Source: Sphingobium wenxiniae (lineage in GTDB: Bacteria; Pseudomonadota; Alphaproteobacteria; Sphingomonadales; Sphingomonadaceae). Taken from it: DNA of 64,000 nucleotides. Shown here one piece after another: positions 55,023 to 64,000 of this stretch. The stretch is taken from NCBI RefSeq assembly GCF_007830065.1, contig NZ_VLKK01000006.1, positions 62,001-126,000 of the forward strand. Direction: 5' to 3'. Each line of letters begins with the position of its first letter. Within the stretch, counting starts at the first letter, position 1. The notes under the pieces were generated by a model that did no database searches, had not been told where the DNA came from, and saw nothing but the letters and a program-made list of their open reading frames with translations. The translations under genes and the position numbers were made by a program.

Positions 55023-56003
55023 TCAACCAGAATCGCCTACCGCCTTTTCCACAAGACCGCGCAGCCATCTAAGCCCCTCGTCCCGGTCCCGCCTGACGCT
55101 CCACATCAGCCGCATCGGCGTGGAACTCGTGCGGTAGGGCGGCGCGAGCAGGCGTATGGCGGGGCCTCCATGCGTTTCGGCGACACGGCGGGGGCATAGC
55201 GCGATCATGTCCGTGGCCTTGACGACTTCAAGGGCGGACAGCGTGTCCGGCACGATGATGCCGATGCGGGGCGTCAAGCCATGTTCGGCCAGGGAGCGCG
55301 CTATTTCCGCATGTTCCATCGTTTCCTTGACGGGCCGGTCGCGGGCGGTGGCGCGGTAGAAGTCGGTCGCGCGGATGTCGACATGCCGCCAGTGCGCCAG
55401 TTCCGCGATCGTGAGCGGGCCGGACCCGCGCGGGTGATCCGCGCGCACCGCGAACACGACGTCTTCGTGCCGCAGCAGCGTGCTGCTGAGACCCGGCAAT
55501 GGCCGGTCGACGGTGGCGATGGCGAGGTCGGCCCGTTCCGATTCGAGGTCGGCCTCGAAGCTGTCGTCAATCTGCCTGAGGTCGAAGCTGATCGCCGATC
55601 CCGCGTCCTCGACGGCGGCCGCCAGCATCGGAGCCAGCTCCATGCGGAGCGACAGGAGGCAGCTGATCCGAAAGCGCCGGTCGCTGTCGCCGGGATCGAA
55701 ACGGCGCACGCTCAGCGCATGGTCGAGGATACCGAGCGCCTCGCGGATCTGGGGGATCAGGTCATCCACCCGCTCGGTAGGCTCCATCCCGTGCGGCCCG
55801 CGCCGGAACAACTCGTCGCCGAGCGTGGCGCGCAACTTCCGCAGATTGTGGCTGACGGCCGAAGGCGTGATAAAAAGACGGCGCGCCGCGGCCGTTACGC
55901 TCCGCTCCTGATACAGAGCATCGAGCGTGCGCAACTGATGCAGTTGCAGCCCGCCGGCTGCACCGGGCGATGAGGAGGAAGCGGGAGTGAGCGCCGTGAA
56001 CAT
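55023..56003 (-). CDS. LysR-family transcriptional regulator
   Basis: A 326-aa LTTR. The N-terminal HTH is preceded by a 20-residue Ser/Ala/Gly-rich leader: LHQLRTLDALYQERSVTAAA, RRLFITPSAVSHNLRKLRAT and GDELFRRGPHGMEPTERVDD. The effector-binding domain follows (FRISCLLSLRMELAPMLAAA, IATVDRPLPGLSS). ATG 56003 is chosen over a TTG at 56015. It is divergent from the OYE-OYE-SDR-SnoaL operon and is its likely activator, with an LTTR-type motif at 56018-56030. Confidence 0.9.
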   Translation of the reverse strand: MFTALTPASSSSPGAAGGLQLHQLRTLDALYQERSVTAAARRLFITPSAVSHNLRKLRATLGDELFRRGPHGMEPTERVDDLIPQIREALGILDHALSVRRFDPGDSDRRFRISCLLSLRMELAPMLAAAVEDAGSAISFDLRQIDDSFEADLESERADLAIATVDRPLPGLSSTLLRHEDVVFAVRADHPRGSGPLTIAELAHWRHVDIRATDFYRATARDRPVKETMEHAEIARSLAEHGLTPRIGIIVPDTLSALEVVKATDMIALCPRRVAETHGGPAIRLLAPPYRTSSTPMRLMWSVRRDRDEGLRWLRGLVEKAVGDSG

Positions 56004-56017
56004 CGTTCCCGTCAATG

Positions 56018-56085: not shown

Positions 56086-57255
56086 ATGTTGACACAGATT
56101 CGCGAAGCGTCCGTCGATCCCGTGGCCGCACCCTTTTTCCTGCCGCTCCAGTTGCGCGGCCTGACGATCCGCAACCGCATCGCAATGGCGCCGATGACGC
56201 GGGAATTTTCACCAGGCGGCATTCCGGGGCCGGACGTGGCGGACTATTATCAAAAGCGCGCGGCCGGCGGCGTCGGCCTGATCGTCACGGAAGGCACGGG
56301 CATCGACCATCCCGTTTCCGTCGACGGCACGAGCATCCCGCAACTCCATGGCGAGGCGGCGCTCGCGGGGTGGAAAGCCGTGATCGACGCGGTCCATGCC
56401 CAAGGCGCGGCGATCGTGCCGCAATTGTGGCATCAGGGATGCCTGCGCGATCCGCTTCGTTCCGCCTATCCCGAGCAGGCCGGCCACCGGCCGTCCGGCT
56501 TGTGGGGCACGCCGGGCCTGGTATCCTACGAACCGGACTATATCGCGCGGGTGAGCGGTCCCACCGAACCGATGACCGACGAGGAGATCGCCGACGTCAT
56601 CGCCGCCTTTGCCCGCTCGGCGCGCAACGCCGCCGCGATCGGCTTCGACGGCATCGCGATCCATGGAGCGCACGGCTATCTGATCGACACCTTCTTCTGG
56701 CGCGACACCAATCGCCGGACCGACCGCTGGGGCGGCGATGCACGGGCGCGGGCCGCATTCGGCGTCGAGGTGGTGCGCGCGATCCGGCGGGAGATCGGCG
56801 AGGCGATGCCGATCATCTTCCGCTTCTCCCAGCACAAGCAGCAGGACTATAAGGCGCGCTTCGCCGACACGCCCGAGGAGCTGGGTATTATCCTGGGCGC
56901 GTTGTCCGATGCGGGCGTCGACCTGTTCGACGCCAGCAGCCGCCGCTTCGACATGGCGGTGTTCGAGGGTTCCGACCTGACCCTGAGCGGATGGGCGCGC
57001 AAGCTGACCGGGAAACCCAGCATGGCGGTGGGCGGCATCGGCCTCAACAACTGGCTTCAGGACACGTTCAAGGGCCGGGGCGAGACGATCGCCGTCAACA
57101 ATCTCGATGAAGTACGCCGCCTTTACGACCGCGGCATGTTCGATATGATCGCCGTTGGACGCGCGCTCATCAGCGATCCTCAATGGGTCATGAAAATGCG
57201 CAGCGGCGAAGCCTTCGTTCCTTATGATGTAACCAGCCTTGGACGCCTGACATGA
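56086..57255 (+). CDS. NADH:flavin oxidoreductase, old yellow enzyme family (paralog 1)
   Basis: A 389-aa FMN TIM barrel that reduces activated C=C bonds. The N-terminus PLQLRGLTIRNRIAMAPMTR is the OYE opening, followed by AAGGVGLIVTEGTGIDHP and PQLWHQG. The substrate-binding His pair is His193/His196 in IHGAHGYLIDTFFW, then TDRWGGD, and DMIAVGRALISDPQWV is the C-terminal FMN-phosphate region. There is no C-terminal Fe-S/FAD domain, unlike dienoyl-CoA reductase or BaiCD. GGAGGG is 6 bp before the ATG. It is the first gene of the operon and overlaps its paralog by 4 bp. Confidence 0.92.
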   Translation: MLTQIREASVDPVAAPFFLPLQLRGLTIRNRIAMAPMTREFSPGGIPGPDVADYYQKRAAGGVGLIVTEGTGIDHPVSVDGTSIPQLHGEAALAGWKAVIDAVHAQGAAIVPQLWHQGCLRDPLRSAYPEQAGHRPSGLWGTPGLVSYEPDYIARVSGPTEPMTDEEIADVIAAFARSARNAAAIGFDGIAIHGAHGYLIDTFFWRDTNRRTDRWGGDARARAAFGVEVVRAIRREIGEAMPIIFRFSQHKQQDYKARFADTPEELGIILGALSDAGVDLFDASSRRFDMAVFEGSDLTLSGWARKLTGKPSMAVGGIGLNNWLQDTFKGRGETIAVNNLDEVRRLYDRGMFDMIAVGRALISDPQWVMKMRSGEAFVPYDVTSLGRLT

Positions 57256-58394
57256 CAGCAATACTGACTTCCACGCTTTTCAAGCCGCTCACCGCACGCG
57301 GCGTGACCATCCCCAACCGCACCGTCATGGCGCCGATGGGCCGGATGTTCGCGCAGAACCATGTGCCGCATCCCGATGCGCCGGCCTATTACCGCCGCCG
57401 GATCGAAGGAGGGATCGGCCTTGTCATCACCGAGGCGACCGGCGTCGACCACCCGCTGGCGGCCGATCATGGCGGCACGCCCCATATGCATGGCGAGGCG
57501 GCGCTGGCCGGCTGGAAGAAGGTCGTGGACGAGGTGCATGGCGTGGGGGGCCTCATCTTCCCGCAGCTCTTCCACCAGGGGATGCTGCATGGCGGCGGCA
57601 ATCCCGACGTGCCGGTGAACAGCTTGCGCCCGTCCGGGACGATCGGCACCCCCGGCCCGACCAGTTTCGCACCGCAGTTCATCGAACGCGCGCTGGCGCC
57701 TACCCGGCCGATGAGCGAGGAGGAGATCGCGGACGCCATCGCCGCCTATGCCCGGTCGGTGAAAAATGCCGTCGCGGTCGGCTTCGACGGGATCGCGCTG
57801 CACGGCGCGCACGGTTACCTGATCGACAGCTTCCTGTGGGGCGAGAGCAACCGGCGCACGGACCGCTGGGGCGGCGATCACAAGCAGCGCACGGCTTTTG
57901 CGGTGGAGGTCATCAAGGCCGCCCGCGCGGAAATGCCCGACGACATGCCGCTCGTTTTCCGCTTTTCCCAGCACAAGTCGAGCAATTATGACGCGCGCAA
58001 TACCGAAACGCCGCAGGAGCTGGAGGCGATGCTCGGCCCTATCGTCGATGCGGGCGTGGACATACTCGACGCGAGCATCCGCCGCTTCTGGCAGCCCGCC
58101 TATGAAGGTTCGCCGCTCAACCTGGCCGGCTGGGCCAAGAAGCTGGTCGGCAAGCCGGTGATCGCGGTGGGCAGCGTGGGCCTGGGCTTTACCGCGTCCG
58201 AAACGTTCATGAAGACCGGCACCGAGCAGGCGGACGATAATATCGCCCTCCTCATGGAGCGGTTCAACGAGGGCGAGTTCGACATGATCGCCATCGGCCG
58301 CTCGCTGATCAGCGATCCCGACTATGTGAACAAGCTGCGGCGCGGCGAGGAACCTGTGCGCTTCTCACGCAAGGCGCTGGAAACCCTGGCATGA
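57252..58394 (+). CDS. NADH:flavin oxidoreductase, old yellow enzyme family (paralog 2)
   Basis: A 380-aa OYE clearly related to the gene before it along its whole length: TEATGVDHPLAADHGGTPHM, PQLFHQGMLHGG, His184/His187 in LHGAHGYLIDSFLW, NRRTDRWGGD, IFRFSQHK-type VFRFSQHKSSNYDARN, and DMIAIGRSLISDPDYV. Differences cluster in the substrate loops (QLFHQG against QLWHQG; the 110-145 segment), so the two may act on different isomers or different ring double bonds. It has ATGA overlaps with both neighbours. Confidence 0.92.
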   Translation: MTAILTSTLFKPLTARGVTIPNRTVMAPMGRMFAQNHVPHPDAPAYYRRRIEGGIGLVITEATGVDHPLAADHGGTPHMHGEAALAGWKKVVDEVHGVGGLIFPQLFHQGMLHGGGNPDVPVNSLRPSGTIGTPGPTSFAPQFIERALAPTRPMSEEEIADAIAAYARSVKNAVAVGFDGIALHGAHGYLIDSFLWGESNRRTDRWGGDHKQRTAFAVEVIKAARAEMPDDMPLVFRFSQHKSSNYDARNTETPQELEAMLGPIVDAGVDILDASIRRFWQPAYEGSPLNLAGWAKKLVGKPVIAVGSVGLGFTASETFMKTGTEQADDNIALLMERFNEGEFDMIAIGRSLISDPDYVNKLRRGEEPVRFSRKALETLA

Positions 58395-59176
58395 CGCAGC
58401 GCCTCCCCCTTGCCGGCAAGGTCGCTCTCATCACCGGCGGCGGACGCGGGCTCGGGCGGGCAATCGCGCTGCGGCTGGCGGGCGACGGCGCGGCCGTGGC
58501 GGTGGTCTCCCGTACCGCCGCGCAGGTCGAACAGGCGGCGGCGGACATCCGGGCGGACGGAGGACAGGCGCTGGGCTTTGCCTGCGACATGACCGCTCCC
58601 GGCGCGACCGCGGCCGCGGTTGCGCGGGTCGCCGCCGAACTGGGGCCGGTCGATATCCTGATCAACAACGCGGCCGACACCAGCGTCGAGGGTATGACGG
58701 GTTCGGTCGAAACGGTCGGCATCGCACAGATCGAGAACCAGATGCGCACCAGCCCCTTCCTGGCGCTGGAGGCGATGCAGGCATGTCTCCCGCATATGCG
58801 GGAGTCGGGCGGGCGCATCATCAACATGGGGTCCGCCGTGGGGACGCGCGGCATGGAGGGGTTCCTGCCCTATGCCATGGCGAAGGAGGCGGTGCGGGCG
58901 CTGACCCGCGTCGCGGCGCGCGAATGGGGCCGTTACGGCATCACCGTCAACGCCATATGCCCCGCCGCCGATACCGAGGCGGCGCGTGACACCGTCACCA
59001 GCGGCGTGCTGGACAAGGTCCGCAGCAGCGGCCCGCGCAGCCCCATCAACCGGCTGGGATCGCCCGAGGATGATGTCGCGCCGCTGGTCGCCTTCCTGGC
59101 GGGACCGGGCGCCGCCTATCTGACGGGCTACACCTATATGGTGGACGGCGGCGGAAGCATCGACGCGGCGCGGTGA
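58391..59176 (+). CDS. Short-chain dehydrogenase/reductase
   Basis: A 261-aa classical SDR of FabG type. Its cofactor motif is TGGGRGLG (residues 15-22), with NNAAD in place of NNAG. The catalytic triad is Ser148, Tyr161 and Lys165 (YAMAK), and the C-terminus has TGYTYMVDGGGSID. An Arg at the end of beta2 (SRTAAQ) hints at NADP(H). It is translationally coupled to the second OYE, so it probably oxidises or reduces a hydroxyl/ketone on the same substrate. Confidence 0.9.
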   Translation: MTQRLPLAGKVALITGGGRGLGRAIALRLAGDGAAVAVVSRTAAQVEQAAADIRADGGQALGFACDMTAPGATAAAVARVAAELGPVDILINNAADTSVEGMTGSVETVGIAQIENQMRTSPFLALEAMQACLPHMRESGGRIINMGSAVGTRGMEGFLPYAMAKEAVRALTRVAAREWGRYGITVNAICPAADTEAARDTVTSGVLDKVRSSGPRSPINRLGSPEDDVAPLVAFLAGPGAAYLTGYTYMVDGGGSIDAAR

Positions 59177-59195: not shown

Positions 59196-59699
59196 GTGAC
59201 CGATCTCGAAAAGCTGCTCGCCATCGAGGCGATCAAGGACATTTTCGCCAAGAAGCTGCGCTATATGGATCTCAAGCAATGGGACGATTACGCTTCGCTG
59301 CACGCGGAAGATGCCTATTCCGAAACCTGGAAGCACAGCCTGCCCACGGACGAACAGCCCATGACCGCGGATGGCCAGCGCGGGCGCGTCGTCGGGCCGG
59401 AGGCGATCGCCGGGCAGCTCGCCCGGGTCTTTACCCACCCGACGCCGATCACCTCGGTGCATCATTGCCACGGGGCGGAAATCGAATTCCTGTCCGATAC
59501 CGAAGCCAGGGGTATATGGGCGATGGAAGATTCGCTCTGGTGGCGGAATGGCGATGTCGAGGAACATCTCCACGGCTATGGCCACTATCATGAGACGTTC
59601 CGCAAGACCGGCGGCCGCTGGCTGTTCACATCCCGTCAGCTCATCCGTATCCGGGTCGACATGACTCCCGATTTCTGGTCGCGGCTCACAATGGCCTGA
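59196..59699 (+). CDS. SnoaL/NTF2-like protein (BaiE-like fold), copy 1
   Basis: A 167-aa protein of the SnoaL-like/NTF2 superfamily: LEKLLAIEAIKDIFAKKLRY, then MDLKQWDDYASLHAEDAYSE, VVGPEAIAGQLARVF, SVHHCHGAEIEFLSDTEARG and HETFRKTGGRWLFTSRQLIR. The likely catalytic Asp is Asp25, with a His cluster at 89-92. Where bile-acid 7-alpha-dehydratase BaiE has a tyrosine (Tyr30, as I recall), this protein has Lys20. It starts at GTG 59196 after a GGAGG site, as last gene of the LysR-divergent operon. A dehydratase or isomerase role is inference. Confidence 0.82.
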   Translation: MTDLEKLLAIEAIKDIFAKKLRYMDLKQWDDYASLHAEDAYSETWKHSLPTDEQPMTADGQRGRVVGPEAIAGQLARVFTHPTPITSVHHCHGAEIEFLSDTEARGIWAMEDSLWWRNGDVEEHLHGYGHYHETFRKTGGRWLFTSRQLIRIRVDMTPDFWSRLTMA

Positions 59700-59723
59700 C
59701 CGGCATCAGGGACCCGACCGGCA

Positions 59724-60227
59724 TCAGGGCACCATCTCGTCAATGTGCCGCAACATTGCAAGGGCATCGGGATCGCCGGTCATCAGCCGATTGGTCCGCC
59801 GCCTGATCATCCATCGCGCCTTCCGCCGCACCAGATCCCACCGGTTGGCGGATATGCGCCAGGGGAAGAAACGATCCTCGCCCTCATGCTGGAAGACGCA
59901 GCTGTAGTTGAGTGCAACCGCCTCGTCTCCCGCGACGGTCACATAGGGCAGGCCCATGACATGGCAGATTCCTTCGGGCACCTGACTGAAATGCCGCGTT
60001 TCAAAGGCGCCGGCGATCGCCTCGCGCCCTTCATAGGCGCCCAGGCCGCCGATGTCGTAAACGCCGTCCTCGGTCCACAGCTCCGCCAGATTGCGCGCGC
60101 GTTCGAGCCGGTCGGACGTATCGACCAGCGGGCCGTAGCTGGCGATGAGCTGGCGGATTTCGATGTGATCGCGCTGGAGCCGCACCTCCTGCTCCAGAGC
60201 CGCCAGCCTTTCCTCGATCGATGTCAT
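59724..60227 (-). CDS. SnoaL/NTF2-like protein (BaiE-like fold), copy 2
   Basis: A 167-aa protein, same length and fold as the previous gene but on the opposite strand and quite diverged. An N-terminal coiled segment (TSIEERLAALEQEVRLQRDH) leads into IEIRQLIASYGPLVDTSDRL. Tyr31, Asp36 and His89 (GICHVMGLPYV) fall where I recall the catalytic Tyr30, Asp35 and His83 of BaiE. GGAGGAGAGG precedes ATG 60227; the frame is open to 60398 but without coding character. It is divergent from the next SDR, so it is regulated separately from copy 1. Confidence 0.82.
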   Translation of the reverse strand: MTSIEERLAALEQEVRLQRDHIEIRQLIASYGPLVDTSDRLERARNLAELWTEDGVYDIGGLGAYEGREAIAGAFETRHFSQVPEGICHVMGLPYVTVAGDEAVALNYSCVFQHEGEDRFFPWRISANRWDLVRRKARWMIRRRTNRLMTGDPDALAMLRHIDEMVP

Positions 60228-60456: not shown

Positions 60457-61281
60457 ATGAGTGTCTGGTCTTATAAGGGCAAACGGGTCGTTGTGGCCGG
60501 CTGCTTTTCCGGCATGGGCGAGGCGACGGCCCGCGAACTGGTGGCGCTAGGCGCCGAAGTGCACGGCGTCGACATCAAGGAGTCGCCTGTCCCGCTGGCA
60601 TCCTTCACCAAGATCGATCTTCGCGATCCCGCGTCCATCGATGCGGCGGTCGAGGCGATCGGCGGCGAAATCGACGCGCTGTTCAACTGCGCGGGCCTGC
60701 CGCAGACCTTCCCCGCCATCGAGGTGATGAAGGTCAACTATATCGGCATGCGCTACTGGACCGAAAAATGGCTGCCCCGGATCAGGAAGGGCGGCGCCAT
60801 CGGCATCATCACGTCGACCGCGGGCATGGGCCACATGCTGCACGCCAGGGAAATCGGCGAACTGATCGCGATCCCCGACTTTGCCGGCGCGGTGGCGTGG
60901 GCCGAAGCGCATCCCGATCTGGTCGGCGACGGCTATGCCTTCTCCAAGGAGGTCAGCTCCTTCTGGACCATGCTGATGGGAACGATCACCATCAAACAGG
61001 GCGTGCGGATCAACTGCGTCGCGCCGGGGCCTACCGAAACGCCGATGATGCCCGACTTCGAATCCGTCGCGAGCGCCAAGATGATCGACGTGTTCATTCA
61101 GCCGATCAATCGCCGCTCCAAGGCCGTCGAGCAGGCTTATCCGCTGATCTTCCTGAACAGCGATGCCGCCAGCTTCATCAACGGCCATATCCTGAACGTC
61201 GACGGCGGCTTCGTCGGCGGCGTGATGACCGGACAGATCGATATTCAGGGATCGATCGAAAAGGCCATGGCGAGCATCTGA
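60457..61281 (+). CDS. SDR, 3-alpha-hydroxysteroid / coniferyl-alcohol dehydrogenase type
   Basis: A 274-aa SDR of the subgroup containing Comamonas 3-alpha-hydroxysteroid dehydrogenase/carbonyl reductase and coniferyl-alcohol dehydrogenase. The cofactor motif is AGCFSGMG (residues 14-21), with a shortened beta2-beta3 region (DIKESPVPLASFTKIDLRD) and NCAGLPQTF. Ser120, Tyr160 and Lys164 (YAFSK) are separated by the subgroup's long insertion (HAREIGELIAIPDFAGAVAW), and the protein ends with APGPTETPMMPDF and VDGGFVGGVMTG. The cofactor is probably NAD, since an aspartate ends beta2 (HGVDIKE). It is divergent from the second SnoaL gene. Confidence 0.88.
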   Translation: MSVWSYKGKRVVVAGCFSGMGEATARELVALGAEVHGVDIKESPVPLASFTKIDLRDPASIDAAVEAIGGEIDALFNCAGLPQTFPAIEVMKVNYIGMRYWTEKWLPRIRKGGAIGIITSTAGMGHMLHAREIGELIAIPDFAGAVAWAEAHPDLVGDGYAFSKEVSSFWTMLMGTITIKQGVRINCVAPGPTETPMMPDFESVASAKMIDVFIQPINRRSKAVEQAYPLIFLNSDAASFINGHILNVDGGFVGGVMTGQIDIQGSIEKAMASI

Positions 61282-61746: not shown

Positions 61747-62487
61747 ATGTCGGACAGGATTGCAATTGTTACGGGCGGCAGCCTTGGCCTGGGCCGGGAG
61801 GTAGCGCGCGGTTTGCTGGCACAGGGATATCGGGTCGCGATATTCGGGCGCAGCCAGGCGTCGCTGGATGAAGCGGTGGCGGATCTGGGCGGCGACGTCC
61901 TTGGCGTATCCGTCGATGTCGGAAACGAAGCCTCGGTTGCCGCTGGCTTTGCGAAGGTGGACGAGGCGATGGGCCCGGTCACCACGCTCGTCAACGTCGC
62001 GGCGATCTTCGAGCCGTTTGCGATCGAGGAGGCCACGGCGGAGCGGATATTGCCGCTGGTGCACATCAATTTTTGCGGGGCGGTCTATTGCATGCGGGAG
62101 GCCGTGACGAGGATGCGGCGGGCCGGACATGGCGACATCGTCAATGTATCGTCCGAATCCGTGCGCCAATCGACGCCGTTCTTTTCCATCTATACCTCGA
62201 CCAAGGCCGCGCTCGAAACCATGACGACCCTTATGGGAGAGGAATTGCGGGAGGACGGCATTCGCTGCACGATCTTCCGCGTCGGCCGGATGCATAGCCA
62301 CGGCGCCGCCAATACCAGCTGTTCGCCCGACCTTCTTCCGCGCTTCATCGACCGTTGCGAGGTCACGGGCGCAAGTTATTGGACGGGGGCGGGCATGCAG
62401 CCCGCGTCAGCCGCACTCGCCTTGGTCAACCTCCTGCTCACACCGCGCGATGCGCGCGTCGAACTGATCGAGGTGCGGTCCTATTGA
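61747..62487 (+). CDS. Short-chain dehydrogenase/reductase
   Basis: A 246-aa SDR. Its cofactor motif is TGGSLGLG (residues 9-16). An Arg after beta2 (FGRSQASL) points to NADP(H), and VNVAAIF replaces the usual NNAG. Ser135/136, Tyr149 and Lys153 (YTSTK) form the active site. The C-terminus is divergent (HSHGAANTSCSPDLLPRFID, SYWTGAGMQPASAALALVNL) and lacks the typical GxxxxVDGG ending, so the substrate pocket differs from the other two SDRs. GAGGA lies 7 bp before the ATG. Confidence 0.87.
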   Translation: MSDRIAIVTGGSLGLGREVARGLLAQGYRVAIFGRSQASLDEAVADLGGDVLGVSVDVGNEASVAAGFAKVDEAMGPVTTLVNVAAIFEPFAIEEATAERILPLVHINFCGAVYCMREAVTRMRRAGHGDIVNVSSESVRQSTPFFSIYTSTKAALETMTTLMGEELREDGIRCTIFRVGRMHSHGAANTSCSPDLLPRFIDRCEVTGASYWTGAGMQPASAALALVNLLLTPRDARVELIEVRSY

Positions 62488-63284: not shown

Positions 63285-64000
63285 TCATGAACCGAATTTG
63301 TAGAGCAGTTGGAGGCCAACCGTCCGCGACTGGCCGAGGATGAAGCTGCTCACGCCGACGCCGGACGGCGAGGTCGAGCCGCCACCTATGCGGGTATATT
63401 CGTTCGTCAGGTTCTTGACATAGGCGGTTGCCGTCACGCCGGTTTCGCCGATGTCCGCCAGCCTGACGCGCAAGTCGAACTGGTGCTGGGACGGAACCCT
63501 GACTTCCACCTGCTGGTAATCCGTATTGTAGTGGAAATCCAACGATGCGCTAAGATTGCCGCCCAGGACCTGTCCCGGAACGTCCACGGTCATGTTCCCA
63601 TTCACGGTCCATTTCGGCTGACCCTGAATGATGATGGTCGTGGGCGCATAGCGACCCGCGCTCGTCAGAAGGTTCAGAAGGGCGGGGTTAAGGTTGATCT
63701 TGTCCACCTTGGTATCGACATAGCCGACATTGCCGCTGAGGGTCAGCCCCTCGATCGGCGTGATGCTGGTCGCCAGTTCGAAACCGCGAAGCGTGATTTC
63801 GCCCGCATTGTCGGTGGTCGTCTGGGTGCCGTGGCGAACCAGGGCGCCGGGGACGCCGCCGACCGAGCAGTCAGAGACGCGGCCGCCCGTCAAGGCTTCC
63901 GGAATACAGGTGCCGCCGTTCAGGTTGGACGTGTTGATCGGCAACTGGTTGTTCTTGTCCTTGCCCGTGAATACGGCCAGATCGACCGATCCCCGCATAC
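63285..64000 (-). CDS. TonB-dependent receptor, C-terminal part (cut by window edge)
   Basis: About 238 C-terminal residues of an outer-membrane beta-barrel; the gene begins beyond the right edge. Alternating strand patterns are clear: GEITLRGFELATSITPIEGL, LTLSGNVGYVDTKVDKINLN, SASLDFHYNTDYQQVEVRVP, FDLRVRLADIGETGVTATAY, VKNLTNEYTRIGGG and the terminal strand RTVGLQLLYKFGS. TLRGFE and the GNVGYVDTK region are typical of sphingomonad receptors that import large organic substrates or siderophores. A terminator follows. It could supply the substrate of the neighbouring OYE/SDR cluster. Confidence 0.9.
   Translation of the reverse strand, partial: MRGSVDLAVFTGKDKNNQLPINTSNLNGGTCIPEALTGGRVSDCSVGGVPGALVRHGTQTTTDNAGEITLRGFELATSITPIEGLTLSGNVGYVDTKVDKINLNPALLNLLTSAGRYAPTTIIIQGQPKWTVNGNMTVDVPGQVLGGNLSASLDFHYNTDYQQVEVRVPSQHQFDLRVRLADIGETGVTATAYVKNLTNEYTRIGGGSTSPSGVGVSSFILGQSRTVGLQLLYKFGS

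Follow-up and report, generated by a model that had tools for sequence, protein, structure and literature searches.

Within a stretch of 64,000 nucleotides of the Sphingobium wenxiniae genome (contig NZ_VLKK01000006.1, positions 62,001 to 126,000, here called the window, taken from the draft genome G000 of 4.1 Mb in 85 contigs), we analyzed two adjacent genes for SnoaL-like proteins of 167 amino acids (aa), named SnoaP (59196–59699, plus strand, GTG start) and SnoaM (59724–60227, minus strand, ATG start). Sequence comparisons place the link to the bile-acid 7-alpha-dehydratase BaiE with SnoaP, a variant without the tyrosine of BaiE, and not with SnoaM. We tentatively propose, at a probability of about 0.4, that SnoaP belongs to a rare accessory catabolic module in which it would dehydrate or isomerize a cyclic hydroxy-enone and old yellow enzymes (OYEs) would reduce the new double bond, with the logic of the bai pathway and a changed active site. 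Both proteins are members of the SnoaL_4 family (Pfam PF13577), with scores of 73.9 bits for SnoaP and 84.8 bits for SnoaM against a curated cut-off of 24. The genes are convergent and separated by 24 bases, each has a GGAGG stretch closely 5' of its start, and both start positions match those of the majority of aligned homologues (the SnoaM open reading frame is nested in a longer frame of 224 aa). A scan of the region for promoters and terminators gave no excess over shuffled sequence.

When SnoaP was compared with the solved structures as a single sequence (phmmer), BaiE was retrieved with an E-value of 6.6e-9, and the best match other than BaiE was 3EF8 (0.029). A six-sequence profile gave 3.1e-16 for BaiE and 0.00028 for 3EF8, a putative scytalone dehydratase, and the homology with BaiE spans residues 3–152 of SnoaP. 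The same searches with SnoaM returned 2RFR (5e-26 with phmmer, 9.1e-71 with a six-sequence profile), whereas BaiE was matched only partially (0.2 and 0.14, respectively); further partial matches of the SnoaM profile were found to LdpA (8ABV, 3.3e-7; 8ABT, 8.1e-6) and, weakly, to ketosteroid isomerase (KSI, best 0.0047). BaiE reportedly uses a Tyr30-Asp35-His83 catalytic triad in which Tyr30 is essential for catalysis, and its Arg146 is said to be important. In SnoaP this triad is incomplete (K20-D25-H89): Lys20 (codon at 59253–59255, plus strand) aligns with Tyr30, and D25, H89, H92, D112, and R151 align with BaiE D35, H83, H86, D106, and R146 (Asp25 codon at 59268–59270; His89 and His92 within the His89-His90-Cys91-His92 stretch at 59460–59471, both plus strand). 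Tyr23 of SnoaP was considered as a shifted catalytic tyrosine and rejected, its place being taken by Ser in L079 and L080 and by Ala in L098, L081, and L082. SnoaM has the complete triad (Y31-D36-H89), which is kept in all six aligned 2RFR-like rows, and its Tyr31 to Asp36 segment (YGPLVD, 60120–60137, minus strand) is common to those six rows except at the residue before Asp. However, the BaiE His86, Asp106, and Arg146 columns of the multiple alignment hold G92, a gap, and L148 in SnoaM, so that this set is not kept. The earlier note on this DNA had correctly described two neighboring 167-aa SnoaL-like proteins on opposite strands and had named the right residues (Y31, D36, and H89 in the minus copy; in the plus copy the Asp and His with a Lys instead of the Tyr, which are K20, D25, and H89), but it took the minus copy for the BaiE-type protein, an assignment that the searches above overturn. 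Nor can the two be regarded as diverged copies of one protein, as that note also had it: direct BLASTP of SnoaP against SnoaM yielded merely a 17-residue match with an E-value of 0.049, and profile-profile comparison gave a probability of 3%. Without usable mutual similarity, the two represent distinct SnoaL_4 subfamilies and not recent copies.

The AlphaFold models of both proteins were of low confidence (mean pLDDT 54 for SnoaP, modeled from three sequences, and 46 for SnoaM, modeled alone) and too poor for residue-level superposition. Foldseek with the SnoaP model nevertheless placed BaiE entries at ranks 1 to 4 (5.1e-6 to 4.4e-5, TM-score 0.39–0.43, root mean square deviation 8.5–10.3), LinA was matched at 1.2e-3, and scytalone dehydratase 1STD only at 0.019. 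The best match of the SnoaM model was 2RFR, at a non-significant 0.21.

The Tyr-Asp-His pattern on which the assignment of SnoaM had rested turned out to be no mark of BaiE-type proteins. We counted it in 73 rows aligned together with BaiE, with columns referred to BaiE positions 30, 35, and 83 and positions checked on the letters of 4LEH. Dropped before counting were L023 and L077 (no SnoaL row extracted), L002, L003, L008, L011, and L016 (duplicates), and L050, L051, L054, and L074 (pieces shorter than 100 residues). The pattern was present in 62 of the 73 rows and in 11 of the 14 SnoaL_4 rows of the source genome (15 genes were found, L023 not being extracted). Tyr-Asp-His is thus generic for SnoaL_4 in this alignment and tells little about BaiE function. 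What sets the BaiE-like proteins apart is the combination Asp35-His83-His86-Asp106-Arg146, all five of which occur in 33 rows, SnoaP included and SnoaM not. Eight of these 33 rows are without the tyrosine, and all eight have Lys or Arg (K/R) in its place.

Across 35 BaiE-like rows, the Tyr30 column holds Tyr in 26 (among them L087, which is annotated as a bile-acid 7-alpha-dehydratase) and K/R in 9. The nine rows come from eight genomes: SnoaP itself, L079, L080, G012, G253, G619, G540, and two tandem copies in G156. Because the groups were defined by the residue in this column, Tyr in 26/26 rows is not a finding, but the other positions are. Tyr32 and His36 of SnoaP (59289–59303, plus strand) and Arg147 (codon at 59634–59636, plus strand) are present in 9/9 K/R rows and in none of the 26 Tyr-type rows, which have L, F, I, or W at the Tyr32 column, Phe in all 26 at the His36 column, and L, I, S, V, or M at the Arg147 column. 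Position 17 is F or Y in seven of the nine K/R rows and K in 26/26 Tyr rows. All members of the five-residue set are kept in 8/9 K/R rows. His130 and Tyr131 were also considered as clade markers and discarded, as they are present in 26/26 Tyr-type rows too. The nine K/R rows lie on one side of a branch with support 100/96 in a tree of 41 chosen rows, and with support 97/93 in a 35-row tree (9 K/R, 24 Tyr-type, and 2 SnoaM-type rows) in which masking covered the Tyr30 column with its two neighbors on each side, and BaiE was omitted as a long branch. The tandem K/R-type pair in G156 (L100:9615-10599) carries a KARRDRA motif and lies near a gene 29% identical to the Rieske-like protein of the source-genome island on contig C6; its first copy is without the equivalents of BaiE Asp106 and Arg146.

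Upstream of SnoaP in the window lie a divergent LysR-type regulator gene (55023–56015, minus strand) and two genes for single-domain OYE-family proteins, OYE1 (56086–57255, plus strand, 389 aa) and OYE2 (57252–58394, plus strand, 380 aa, 52% identical to OYE1). The motif HGxHGY, which has a catalytic role in OYEs, is conserved in OYE1 and occurs in 8/8 aligned OYE rows. Searched against solved structures, OYE1 has GTN reductase, Sye, and OPR entries among its nearest relatives; given these relatives and the single-domain architecture, the hydride would probably be taken from NAD(P)H directly. With 140.6 and 149.9 bits, both proteins fall well short of the 825 bits demanded by the BaiCD model (642 positions), and the large BaiCD-type OYE that stands beside the dehydratase in a Bai-type gene set was not found at the SnoaP locus.

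The same partners recur in other genomes of the K/R clade. In two uncultured Sphingomonadales (L079 and L080), the divergent LysR, OYE1, OYE2, and SnoaP are present at 54–57, 77, 75–80, and 74–77% identity, on contigs that end approximately 2 kb beyond SnoaP. G619 and G540, from another family of the same class, have a same-strand run of SnoaP, an OYE (61% identical to OYE1), SnoaM, and a short-chain dehydrogenase/reductase (SDR). For the SDR at the end of the G540 run (L098:12072-12863), the best NCBIfam match is 7beta-hydroxysteroid dehydrogenase, at 112.6 of 300 bits and far below the cut-off. SnoaM and SnoaP are adjacent and divergent in G012, and an OYE lies 3 kb from SnoaP in G253. Six of the seven other K/R genomes contain a SnoaM relative, with E-values no higher than 1.8e-23 (56 and 52% identity in the two uncultured genomes); in the family sample, 31 of the 298 genomes had one at 1e-20 (best identity 48%). 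The suggestion that two distinct steps are encoded side by side gains support from these SnoaM relatives and from the closeness of the two genes in G012, G619, and G540. A run of the G619/G540 order but with a different first SnoaL occurs in G107 (L083:7849-10041), where a SnoaL-like gene precedes an OYE sharing 33% identity with OYE1, followed by a relative of SnoaM at 48%; that first SnoaL is 31% identical to a source-genome paralogue over 137 residues and has a Tyr near its first residues.

An OYE gene lies within 5 kb of 6/8 K/R loci compared with 2/23 Tyr-type loci (Fisher P 0.0009; 3/5 and P 0.027 when K/R loci are collapsed to five lineages), at a distance limit chosen after the data had been seen; at 10 kb the Tyr-type count is 4/23, two of these four matches being partial and at a region edge. 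A SnoaM relative lies within 10 kb of 4/8 K/R loci and 0/23 Tyr-type loci (P 0.002; collapsed 3/5, P 0.003). The 23 Tyr-type loci, which the collapsed tests take as independent, are 21 fetched regions (22 of 23 places, L039 omitted), four of them shorter than 20 kb, plus L005 and L006 of the source genome. Within the source genome, a SnoaL_4 gene was found within 1 kb of three of the seven OYE loci (contigs C4 and C5 and the window; seven loci hold eight barrel genes, a tandem pair being counted once), with a random-placement P of 4.5e-5 in a test devised after the pattern had been seen and including the window locus. The OYE-SnoaL pairing thus recurs at C4:193137-196183 and C5:188811-190377, where OYE genes lie 81 and 104 bp from SnoaL_4 genes.

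From the sequences, family placement, clade residues, and linkage observed, we infer the following chemistry and residue roles. SnoaP would form the core of the module together with an OYE, represented in the window by OYE1 and OYE2, and often also with SnoaM; the divergent LysR gene would control the set in the window. The His89-Asp25 pair of SnoaP would act as a base on a cyclic hydroxy-enone, from which SnoaP would either expel the hydroxyl (vinylogous dehydration) or shift the double bond, and Lys20 and Tyr32 might assume a polarizing or acid role. Reduction of the resulting C=C by the single-domain OYEs, at the expense of NAD(P)H, would follow, so that SnoaP and OYE together would amount to a reductive dehydroxylation, as with BaiE and BaiH. 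SnoaM may act on substrates of the same class in a further step, a proton transfer or an elimination, and a downstream SDR (SDR2, 60457–61281, plus strand) could make the ketone. The combination of OYE, BaiE-like protein, and SDR2 allows no more than a guess that the substrate is steroid-like or another polycyclic ketone. The residues changed in the K/R clade may face the pocket. We regard as doubtful, though of interest, the wider idea that the clade is a new catalytic class of BaiE-like SnoaL_4 proteins, in which the helix-1 Tyr has become Lys/Arg, a Tyr and a His sit on helix 2 or immediately behind it, with an Arg on the last strand (placements taken from the low-confidence model), and which, paired with single-domain ene-reductases and often a 2RFR-like SnoaL, would serve the aerobic reductive dehydroxylation of polycyclic ketones outside the known bile-acid pathways.

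Several observations weigh against the proposed module, beginning with the post hoc 5-kb limit and the equally post hoc test on the OYE loci given above. The linkage counts rest on five K/R lineages, and residues specific to the clade were inherited within it and therefore represent one or a few events and not nine independent ones. No OYE was found within the 20 kb read in G012, no SnoaM relative at 1e-10 in G253, and neither an OYE nor SnoaM within 10 kb of the two K/R genes of G156. In the two uncultured Sphingomonadales, SnoaM relatives are found on separate contigs with different neighbors, which shows that SnoaP and SnoaM are not always adjacent, and in the window the two genes lie on opposite strands. 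The gene between OYE2 and SnoaP, SDR1 (58391–59176, plus strand), is not supported as a core member because it is missing from this position in L079 and L080. Concerning the chemistry, the reported need of BaiE for Tyr30 means that its loss could bring a different reaction or none, and OYEs can also desaturate, so the redox step could run in either direction.

These points give some room to other explanations. SnoaP, and SnoaM too, could be isomerases or lyases that catalyze KSI-like double-bond shifts or eliminations of another kind, the OYEs then serving as desaturases toward aromatization. The partial matches of the SnoaM profile to LdpA and, weakly, to KSI and the match of the low-confidence SnoaP model to LinA point that way, and OYE-family enzymes are able to desaturate (excerpt of PMC8044976). 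However, the significant solved relatives of SnoaP, BaiE and the putative 3EF8, are dehydratases by name, and the KSI match is limited to approximately 50 N-terminal residues of SnoaM; we consider this alternative unlikely. It is less probable still that SnoaP is a 7-alpha-hydroxysteroid dehydratase, an orthologue of Hsh2 or BaiE with a tolerated Tyr-to-Lys change, in a gene block for bile-salt degradation. This would agree with BaiE being the nearest solved relative of SnoaP, with the nearest solved structure of SDR2 being 3-alpha-hydroxysteroid dehydrogenase/carbonyl reductase (1FJH, 2.3e-26), and with the succession of an OYE-family 5beta-delta4-KSTD and Hsh2 in Sphingobium Chol11 (PMC8044976). 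Yet SnoaP falls in the K/R clade, apart from the 26 Tyr-type rows with L087; the characterized 5beta-delta4-KSTD is described in the same excerpt of PMC8044976 as a large protein that carries both FAD and FMN and is predicted to hold an Fe-S cluster, whereas OYE1 and OYE2 are single-domain; and SDR2 exceeds the threshold set by NCBIfam for coniferyl-alcohol dehydrogenase (NF009092), which means that a steroid need not be involved.

Sphingomonads being rich in SnoaL, SDR, and OYE genes, the neighborhood might also have come together by chance, as could be argued from the 15 SnoaL_4 genes of the source genome, the several SDRs of the window, the rarity of SnoaP (1/396 genomes of the order at 1e-30), and the small number of lineages compared. 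Recurrence of the same partners in two families, with the same-strand run in G619 and G540, and the linkage contrast with the 23 Tyr-type loci make a chance assembly improbable. Least likely of all, in our judgment, is that one of the two proteins is a non-catalytic binding or partner protein, for example SnoaP after loss of the Tyr that BaiE is said to need. Proteins of the NTF2 fold come in catalytic and non-catalytic versions (excerpt of PMC3924330), and the G156 copy that is missing both the second Asp and the Arg could be an example. Against it, the five-residue set persists in 8/9 K/R rows and Tyr32, His36, and Arg147 in 9/9, unlike what would be expected of a site in decay, and SnoaM keeps Y31, D36, and H89 in 6/6 rows.

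Genes like SnoaP are rare. At a quality of at least 1e-30 they were found in 3/298 genomes of the family sample, 3/385 of the class, and 1/396 of the order, the source genome being counted each time, and in 1/398 of the phylum sample at 1e-26; none was found in 13 listed genomes of the same genus. Plasmid searches returned matches all below 60% identity (11 and 23 records), mostly from Sphingobium and Novosphingobium. Two scans of viral contigs contained no relative, and a third found one partial locus, which was left out of the analysis. In the titles and abstract openings of the matches listed, an OYE/SnoaL module was not described, most subscription papers being outside the coverage.

Other genes in and around the window were noted as well. 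SDR2 and a further SDR gene, SDR3 (61747–62487, plus strand), are of unproven membership in the module. A large gene resembling, by eye, a TonB-dependent receptor extends over the window end beside the module (window 63285–64000 and L004:285-2930). Elsewhere in the source genome, a dense island at contig C6:157086-184836, approximately 31–59 kb past the window end (L005, L006) and not tied to the module, encodes a pair of flavoproteins that resemble 3-ketosteroid-delta1-dehydrogenases but score under the NCBIfam cut-offs. It also holds a Rieske-oxygenase-like gene, another single-domain OYE (the third), and two BaiE-like SnoaL genes of the Tyr type; inspection by eye alone added EthD-like and TonB-receptor-like genes. 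At C2:87830-89779 lies a gene for a full-length BaiCD-like large OYE (393 bits, cut-off 825), with SnoaL_4 genes 11–13 kb off.

SnoaL/NTF2 enzymes are numerous and many are unassigned. The K/R clade offers a tractable case of this fold changing chemistry, in which a residue reportedly essential in BaiE has been swapped in coordinated fashion and along with the gene partners, and it points to a testable route of dehydration plus ene-reduction in aerobic sphingomonads. If the wider idea of a new catalytic class is correct, the 2RFR family would gain its first pathway context. A practical warning also follows, namely that Tyr-Asp-His alone is insufficient to identify bile-acid dehydratases.

Among the known systems, BaiE is like SnoaP in being homologous to it over SnoaP residues 3–152 and in sharing the equivalents of Asp35, His83, His86, Asp106, and Arg146. 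It differs in having Tyr30 where SnoaP has Lys and other clade members Arg, and in having Leu, Leu, and Thr at the places of SnoaP Tyr32, His36, and Arg147. Dehydration at C7 by BaiE yields a 3-oxo-delta4,6 intermediate, BaiH has delta6-reductase activity, and BaiE also works with OYE-family enzymes in the bai pathway (excerpts of PMC10382948), although the partners of SnoaP are single-domain OYEs and not the long BaiCD-type proteins. Hsh2, the 7-alpha-hydroxysteroid dehydratase of Sphingobium sp. Chol11, comes from the same host group and is homologous to BaiE (PMC12175502, in excerpt); the Tyr-type rows including L087 would be likelier orthologues of Hsh2 than SnoaP is. For SnoaM, the counterpart is 2RFR (Saro_3722 of Novosphingobium aromaticivorans, NTF2-like and uncharacterized), which matches it over nearly the full length with the same YGPLxD motif and His, while SnoaM carries four extra residues after Asp39 relative to 4/5 other aligned rows of that family. 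A 12-beta-hydroxyl is removed in two steps, dehydration and subsequent reduction, by Hsh1 and Sor1 of Pseudomonas stutzeri Chol1 (excerpt of PMC8399759), and SteC, the Comamonas dehydratase for the C12-beta-hydroxyl, is a SnoaL/NTF2 protein (excerpt of PMC13101464). By description, Hsh1 and Sor1 share the dehydratase-plus-oxidoreductase logic proposed for SnoaP and its OYEs. The rare gene set of SnoaP and OYE suggests an undescribed route for removing oxygen groups from ring-shaped molecules.

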